Source: an uncultured Verrucomicrobiota bacterium (GTDB lineage Bacteria; Verrucomicrobiota; Kiritimatiellia; RFP12; UBA3636). Taken from it: DNA of 32,906 nucleotides. The position numbers were made by a program, and so were the translations under genes. The stretch lies in contig CASFKR010000031.1 in NCBI GenBank assembly GCA_949295265.1, positions 1-32,906 of the forward strand, given 5' to 3'. Positions 20,988-22,268 of this stretch are shown piece by piece; position 1 is the stretch's first letter, and each line of letters starts with the position of its first letter. The notes under the pieces were generated by a model. That model searched no databases. It was not told where the DNA came from and worked only from the letters and a program-made list of their open reading frames with translations.

Positions 20988-21854
20988 CTACGCATCTTCG
21001 GAGGATGCGGACGCCTTGTTTTCGGGCGCTGCAGGTGCCGCCGTGTGCGCCGATGCGGCAGACGCCTGATGGCGCCGCCGCAGTTTGCGCAATTGCCAGC
21101 CGCGCCGGATGCGGGCAAAGAACGGATGCCGGAAGGGACCCTTGCCTGTCGGTTCCAGCGTATCCGGCATGTCGTAAACCACCGAGACGGCAAAACGGCC
21201 GAACCAGCAGTAGCGCCCGATATAGGACTTGCCGTCGGCATCCGTCAAATCGCAGTTGCCCGGACTCGTCTCCACGCAGCTGAGCGTGCGGAATCCGCAA
21301 CCGAATCCCTCGCCGAGCACCTTGGACAGCGCCTCTTTGAAGGTCCAGAGCACGGCGGCGTCTCCCAACGAATCATCCTTTTCCAGCATGCGGTCATTCG
21401 GGGAGATGAATTTGCGGCGCAACATCATCAGCCGCCAGGTGCGGTGCTCAATGTCGACGCCGATGCGCATCCTGCGCTGCGGACTGTACGCCACCAGCAC
21501 GTAGGGGCCGGAATGCGAAATCGAACACGCCATTTCCGCATACCGGAGCGTGTCCGGTTCGTAAATCACCAGATGGGGCGCACCCCGTTCATCTTTGCGC
21601 ACGGAGACGTCCTGCGCCCGGCGGATGATGCCATCGCGGAGCAGGAGCGACTTGAGGGCGATGCGCGAAGCCAGCCGTTCCCGCCGCGTTTTTTCGCTGT
21701 TGAGCGCCCGGTATTCGGTCAGTTCCGTTTCCGTGAGCCATTGCTCCGGCGTTTTGGGCGATTCCTCTTCAATCCCGGCAATCGGGAACAGGACCGCGCG
21801 AAACGCCTGTTCGCCGGACAAAATGGGCTGAAGCTGGGGAATCGGATTGCTCAT
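20988..21854 (-). CDS. 4'-phosphopantetheinyl transferase, Sfp type
   Basis: The 288-residue enzyme transfers phosphopantetheine from CoA to a serine of carrier proteins. The substrate and metal motifs are present: SISHSG at 112-117, IGVDIEHR at 131-138 (D134 and E136 bind Mg), and WTFKEALSKVLGEGF at 170-184 (catalytic and ligand Glu/Lys). The two-fold pseudo-dimeric layout and length fit the Sfp group, with a basic, Ala-rich tail beyond residue 245 that is extra. It may serve as the general AcpS of the cell or act on a secondary-metabolite carrier; no polyketide or peptide synthase is nearby. No Shine-Dalgarno is visible. Its promoter is at 21912-21940. Confidence 0.9.
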   Translation of the reverse strand: MSNPIPQLQPILSGEQAFRAVLFPIAGIEEESPKTPEQWLTETELTEYRALNSEKTRRERLASRIALKSLLLRDGIIRRAQDVSVRKDERGAPHLVIYEPDTLRYAEMACSISHSGPYVLVAYSPQRRMRIGVDIEHRTWRLMMLRRKFISPNDRMLEKDDSLGDAAVLWTFKEALSKVLGEGFGCGFRTLSCVETSPGNCDLTDADGKSYIGRYCWFGRFAVSVVYDMPDTLEPTGKGPFRHPFFARIRRGWQLRKLRRRHQASAASAHTAAPAAPENKASASSEDA

Positions 21855-21911: not shown

Positions 21912-21940
21912 ATTGTATCCGAGGCCCCCCGGGAACGCAA
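21912..21940 (-). promoter_or_regulatory. Promoter of the phosphopantetheinyl transferase
   Basis: On the minus strand TTGCGT (21940-21935), 17 nt, TACAAT (21917-21912). The repeat element's flanking direct repeat begins 6 nt upstream of this -35. Confidence 0.65.
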
Positions 21941-21945
21941 ACCGT

Positions 21946-22268
21946 CCGCAAGCACAGGTTTATCCCGGATTTTCCGGGATAATTGATCCAGATTTCTTGA
22001 AAGATGGCTCCTGTAGCCTCTTTTCAAGACTAGATACTCGTAAATAGTCTGCCAATACTTTTTCACCCGATAGTTCAGAAAAATAACTTTGCCGTTGCTC
22101 CAATGGTTGCGCAGACTTCGTTCAGGCGGCCATGCCGCCTTCTAAAAAGTCCTTATTTGACACCTTGGTCGGAACGTTAGTGGAGACTTCAGAAGGGGGC
22201 TTCGCCCCTCCGTGTGGCTCACTTCCTCCGTGTGGCTCAATAATCCGGGATAAGCCCGCAAGCACAGG
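21946..22268. mobile_element. MITE-like non-coding element with TIRs and flanking direct repeats
   Basis: A 13-nt direct repeat CCGCAAGCACAGG occurs at 21946-21958 and 22256-22268. Just inside are perfect 12-nt inverted repeats, TTATCCCGGATT (21960-21971) and AATCCGGGATAA (22242-22253). The 294-nt interior is more AT-rich than its surroundings and has no gene. It contains several stem-loops: 21961-21981, 21995-22029, 22124-22140 and around 22195-22209. It also has a short tandem repeat. This is the layout of a small non-autonomous transposable element with a target duplication, though a 13-nt duplication is long. It lies between the PPTase promoter and an antiporter gene. Confidence 0.6.
22207..22239 (+). 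repeat. Two-copy tandem repeat inside the element
   Basis: CCTCCGTGTGGCTCA occurs at 22207-22221 and again at 22225-22239, a period of 18 nt. Only two copies are present. Confidence 0.85.

Follow-up and report, generated by a model that had tools for sequence, protein, structure and literature searches.

The short element that lies upstream of a phosphopantetheinyl transferase (PPTase) gene in the DNA described here is a MITE, a new member of this kind of element, and it very probably represents a family that derives from an insertion sequence (IS) of the IS4 superfamily, is moved in trans and has its insertion site where sigma70-type promoters have their upstream edge. The window referred to below is the whole stretch of 32,906 nt that was analysed. 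The genome from which it comes (G000; 2.8 Mb in 199 contigs) is related at the level of the order to gut MAGs of the Kiritimatiellae.

The element in the window and its neighbouring promoter

Comparison with other copies sets the edges of the MITE (CAGG...CCCG) and gives it a length of 304 bp (Table 1). These edges differ from those of the initial annotation, which had bounded the element by perfect 12-nt inverted repeats and taken a 13-nt direct repeat as the flank of the whole. The inverted repeats are present (TTATCCCGGATT at 21960-21971 and AATCCGGGATAA at 22242-22253) and so is the direct repeat CCGCAAGCACAGG (21946-21958 and 22256-22268), but the latter does not flank the element, the true target-site duplication (TSD) being the 6-bp sequence CAAGCA. 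The remaining 7 nt of the 13-nt repeat are CCG plus CAGG, an identity between the ends of the element and the neighbouring flank that would arise by chance in any one copy with a probability of about 1 in 16,000 and is not fully explained; starts with CAG after the TSD, similar to that of the window copy, are also seen in L019 and L112.

The left inverted repeat forms a palindrome with its subterminal copy, and a palindrome like this one is also found at one end of related ISs. Most of the copies that were aligned have a module of ~50 nt near the right end that is absent from the window copy. As had been proposed, the interior is free of plausible genes (ORF check of the 304 bp) and has strong predicted stem-loops, with a DNA fold (z = -4.1) that was equalled in stability by 0 of 100 shuffles. 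The consensus fold of the copies is stable as well, and a covariation test found 0 pairs with changes on both sides. Searches of Rfam and of a plasmid collection with the element gave no match, and no terminator-like sites were found in its region.

The predicted promoter of the PPTase gene, which the initial annotation had already placed next to the element, bears out on inspection: TTGCGT and TACAAT are separated by a 17-nt spacer on the minus strand, upstream of a start codon at 21854. Its -35 hexamer is separated from the TSD by 8 nt and starts at a distance of 14 nt from the element's left end. The element thus takes the place of the DNA beyond about -44 to -50 on the upstream side, while the predicted core promoter stays intact.

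Table 1. Features of the MITE and of the adjoining PPTase promoter and gene (positions in the window)
Feature	Position	Strand	Remarks
4'-Phosphopantetheinyl transferase gene, 288 aa	20988..21854	-	Pfam ACPS, E 1.2e-9
-10 hexamer TACAAT, predicted PPTase promoter	21912..21917	-	Offset 37 from element
-35 hexamer TTGCGT, predicted PPTase promoter	21935..21940	-	Offset 14 from element
Left TSD copy CAAGCA	21949..21954	+	Copy comparison
MITE	21955..22258	+	One of at least 40 scored copies in the genome
Left 14-nt terminal inverted repeat CAGGTTTATCCCGG	21955..21968	+	
Palindrome TTATCCCGGATTTTCCGGGATAA	21960..21982	.	Left inverted repeat plus subterminal copy
Right 14-nt terminal inverted repeat CCGGGATAAGCCCG	22245..22258	-	Minus strand = CGGGCTTATCCCGG
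Right TSD copy CAAGCA	22259..22264	+	Copy comparison

The window also contains two adjacent Na/Ca exchanger genes (PF01699; 22290-24437, minus strand), both of which shift frame at an equivalent place, directly before GENDIAVGNVVGSNIFN. The two genes might have small deletions in common, or the repeats might have affected the assembly.

Copies of the element in its own genome

The initial annotation had suggested that the rest of the genome be searched for the element, and for its ends near a transposase. At least 40 similar copies were found with the element as query (40 scored, full or partial, the best with 85-93% identity), together with at least 77 right ends (77 occurrences of the right-end motif at up to one mismatch; control 0). 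The genome contains the end motif CAGGYTTATCCC at 137 places and the reversed control pattern at none. Many of the copies are at contig ends, as would be expected because repeats break assembly. The layout of most copies is CAGGCTTATCCCGG-TTTTT-CCGGGATAATTGATCC...GAGCCACACGG...ATCCGGGATAAGCCTG, and the interior is conserved among them. Exact TSDs of 5-7 bp are found in 16 of the 27 two-ended copies, where shuffled pairings lead one to expect 0.6; the other 11 paired copies have no exact TSD of this length. A near-palindrome of 39 bp (G000:C92:8590-8628; L101) consists of little beyond the two element ends; it might be an element of minimal size or else two ends that have become fused.

The MITE-like nature proposed for the window element has thus held up: the element is short and non-coding, has 14-nt inverted repeats, occurs in dispersed copies with TSDs and shares its ends with an IS, its likely parent, in the same genome. 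Neither of the two outcomes that the initial annotation had named as arguments against transposition came to light among the genomes compared, which belong to other genera.

The putative parent insertion sequence

Ends of the element do occur near a transposase. An intact gene for a DDE transposase of 442 aa is found at C61:14568-15893 in the window's own genome, adjoined by CAGGTTTATCCCGG at C61:14469. Only a single end of this IS is assembled, the left end being lost beyond the end of the contig, and away from the 14-nt repeat the IS resembles the MITE little. A hybrid at C167 and an element of 55 bp (G000:C69:20591-20645; L180), which is made up of the right end of the C61 IS plus inverted repeats, join the right end of the IS to the repeat or the left end of the MITE and so link the two directly. 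Apart from short end-derived elements, the only other copy of the C61 IS found in the genome is a 103-bp remnant at C69. The C61 IS is likely to be the parent of the MITE, and its transposase may be the one that mobilizes it. The 55-bp element faces a promoter-like sequence at offset 13.

The C61 protein matches PF01609 (DDE_Tnp_1) above the Pfam cut-off (E 7.4e-10) and carries the IS4-type Y-(2)-R-(3)-E-(6)-K motif YLNRWQIEQSFRVVK; this domain and motif assign the predicted transposase to the IS4 superfamily. It does not reach the NCBIfam cut-off for the IS4 family sensu stricto (best 47.8 bits vs 160) or that for IS1634 (27.3 bits vs 100), though TSDs of 5-6 bp would fit the latter. The nearest solved structure by sequence in the PDB is that of the Tn5 transposase, with weak similarity.

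When 84,980 named genomes were scanned for the palindromic end that the related elements have, 26 contigs came up, which, where their source is named, belong to gut or rumen MAGs, most of the named ones Kiritimatiellae. A complete IS of 1.5 kb with ends like those of the MITE lies on DGVK01000169.1 (MAG UBA4286); its DDE transposase gene lies between the palindromic end CACCCTTATCCCGGAAATTTCCGGGATAAATTATCCC and the right end CCGGGATAAGGGTG, and its TSD is the 7-bp sequence TGCACCG. Its transposase matches PF01609, is 31% identical to the C61 protein and likewise misses the NCBIfam cut-off for the IS4 family (43.1 bits vs 152). A multicopy IS of G030 (L082-L088, L111) has the same ends as the MITE, although the body of its transposase was not found; inside its right end there is a C-terminus reading ...PTPANSTSWFN that is without counterpart in the C61 and UBA4286 transposases.

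Fixed spacing between element ends and predicted promoters

Offsets were read outward from each element end for the TTATCCC-ended elements and the related CTGGAGTTTACCC-ended ISs, with sigma70-like promoters recognized by sequence (pattern TTGNNN-N17-TANNNT). Typically, the -35 starts ~8 nt past the TSD (offset 13-15) and the -10 is at offset 36-38. In unselected counts over 97 ends, TANNNT was seen 21, 11 and 4 times at offsets 36, 37 and 38, where more distant positions have on average 0.58 each, and TTG 24 and 10 times at offsets 13 and 14, against 1.4. The same -10 offsets had counts of 7, 10 and 3 vs 0.24 in 38 held-out ends (P ~ 8e-23) and of 4, 8 and 9 vs 0.4 in TTATCCC-ended elements of other genomes. 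The CTGGAGTTTACCC-ended family (L197, L250-L279), which is present in 55 of the 162 genomes of the order and has transposases ~25% identical to the C61 protein, places a -10 at offset 35-38 for 18 of 31 ends, against 0.3. The window copy, with offsets of 14 and 37 and a TSD of 6 bp, fits the rule of its family exactly.

TSDs of 5, 6 and 7 bp are accompanied by a -10 mostly at offset 36, 37 and 38, respectively, i.e., 31 nt past the TSD, from which it follows that 8 bp separate the promoter-side cut from the -35 downstream of it and that the TSD spans about -44 to -48/-50. When the promoter spacer in the TTATCCC families is 18 rather than 17, the offset of the -35 is unchanged and it is the -10 that shifts; the position of insertion in these families appears to be measured from the -35 side and not from the -10.

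Promoter-facing ends number 47 of the 97, about the half that is expected if each element has one end towards the promoter. Either end can take this part (right 27, left 10 in the window's own genome), whose right end thus does so more often; the end towards the promoter in G030 is the palindromic one. The aligned flanks of the promoter-facing ends bring out TTG, a 17-nt spacer and a TG upstream of TANNNT; the -10 letters in this alignment, and to a lesser degree those of the -35, are partly selected by the choice of facing ends, which does not apply to the offset counts. An ORF of at least 150 aa starts 40-160 nt out from 32 of 36 promoter-facing ends vs 36 of 61 others, and the ORFs beyond promoter-facing ends include Dxr-, PheT-, DapA- and GpmI-like proteins (by eye); for the C61 IS, the promoter ahead of its end is that of a tRNA-Ala gene. 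The host promoters at the element ends are presumably active. Some ends face no recognizable promoter, among them the ends seen in the G098 subfamily and those on the transposase side of the G030 IS, the other end of which does face one. A minority of ends (L043 and L044 in G036; L061 and L067 in G000) have the promoter ~10 bp closer, i.e., by one helical turn, with the -35 at offset 3-4 and the -10 at 26-27.

How the insertion site might be chosen

The spacing is best explained by supposing that it is set at integration, that is, that integration is targeted to promoters. The MITE would descend from an IS4-superfamily DDE IS as a short form without genes, and a transposase such as that of G000:C61 would move it in trans by bringing together its two CTTATCCCGG ends and cutting the target with a stagger of 5-7 bp. 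Insertion would take place at the upstream edge of a sigma70-type promoter, with the promoter-side edge of the TSD 8 bp upstream of the -35, a position that might most simply be set through contact with sigma/-35 DNA or with the holoenzyme of RNA polymerase as it sits on the promoter. The upstream edge of a promoter is a plausible safe landing site, where the core promoter and the gene would survive and copies could build up.

The same distribution might be sought in an ordinary MITE that inserts freely between genes, the copies near promoters being the survivors of selection against hits in genes and core promoters. Purifying selection must also operate on these elements, and MITEs are usually intergenic according to passages of a recent review (PMC10969869), but survival of this kind predicts that the distance to the -35 would vary widely among copies, whereas the counts form a spike 1-3 bases wide on a flat background and the spike recurs in held-out ends, in other genomes and in a second family. 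Since no such spike would be expected from selection in several families, selection alone is a poor explanation, and we consider it improbable. We judge it just as improbable that copies were retained at the promoter edge for a benefit to the host, for example as upstream enhancers or as insulators against read-through. The strong folding of the interior and its conservation among copies would suit such a role; the results of the covariation and terminator searches given above, and the freedom of either end to face the promoter, speak against it. The interior is moreover not needed for the position, because it is shared by full-length ISs, by a family whose ends differ and by the element of 55 bp. 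The palindromic end, together with the 39-bp near-palindrome with the same ends at C92, could also recall a repeat that is not a DDE MITE but REP-like or derived from IS200/IS605. HUH elements are not known to generate TSDs, and the TSDs and the DDE transposase with the same ends lead us to reject this origin as most improbable.

A different matter is whether the transposase might read promoter DNA (TTG and flanking bases) as a motif, with no part for RNA polymerase. Promoters would still be targeted, in a different manner, and the only step called into question is polymerase contact. The way in which insertion tracks the -35 hexamer when the spacer length differs is in keeping with it; yet the -10 and its upstream TG are conserved as well, 23 nt further on, and TANNNT is at the right distance in 16 of the 24 ends that have TTG at offset 13, which a reader of TTG only would not need. 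Recognition of the DNA motif is therefore a possibility that we regard as rather unlikely.

Relation to known transposable elements and significance

Like members of the IS4 superfamily (IS4, IS1634, ISH3 and IS701, with Tn5/IS50 as a structural relative), the putative parent IS has a PF01609 domain, the YREK motif, a single ORF and inverted repeats, and its transposase is weakly similar to that of Tn5. Against the NCBIfam families for IS4, IS1634, ISH3 and IS701 it scores far under every cut-off (best 48 vs 160), and the TSDs of 5-7 bp, the palindrome at one end and the fixed spacing to promoters are features of the element family's own.

The usual view of bacterial ISs is that they insert widely or at short DNA motifs. 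An IS that lands within 1-2 bases of a fixed distance from a promoter would, if the present reading is correct, represent a new way of choosing a target; the safe haven it provides could account for the high copy number, the copies would serve as natural markers of promoters in uncultured bacteria, with the -35 fixed to 1-2 bases, and the transposase might find use as a tool for promoter mapping. In a search of the open-access literature, a scope outside which most subscription papers fall, no description came up of a bacterial IS that targets promoters at a fixed distance.

The window MITE resembles the Chunjie, Correia and ERIC elements in being short, non-coding and multi-copy, with inverted repeats, TSDs and a mostly intergenic location. 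Passages of the 2024 review cited above (PMC10969869) describe, for bacterial MITEs, an intergenic preference and promoters carried inside the elements, and these passages make no mention of a fixed distance to host promoters. Unlike MITEs of the Chunjie, Correia and ERIC type, the present family is next to a promoter that is host DNA outside the element. The novelty lies in the choice of target, the element itself being a further MITE.

In its way of working, the family can be compared with a eukaryotic element. Ty3 of yeast integrates at a nearly exact position relative to the transcription start by way of the transcription machinery at Pol III promoters. The likeness is in the near-exact position at promoters, contact with the machinery being something we infer for the bacterial element; Ty3 is a retroelement that uses an integrase in a eukaryote, whereas the elements described here belong to a bacterial DDE IS and sigma70-type promoters. 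The chances seem to us evenly balanced that a clade of the IS4 superfamily integrates into housekeeping promoters, near -44 to -50, by way of the RNA polymerase holoenzyme bound there, as a bacterial counterpart of Ty3, and that scores of promoters in genomes of the Kiritimatiellae have been marked by the MITEs of this clade.
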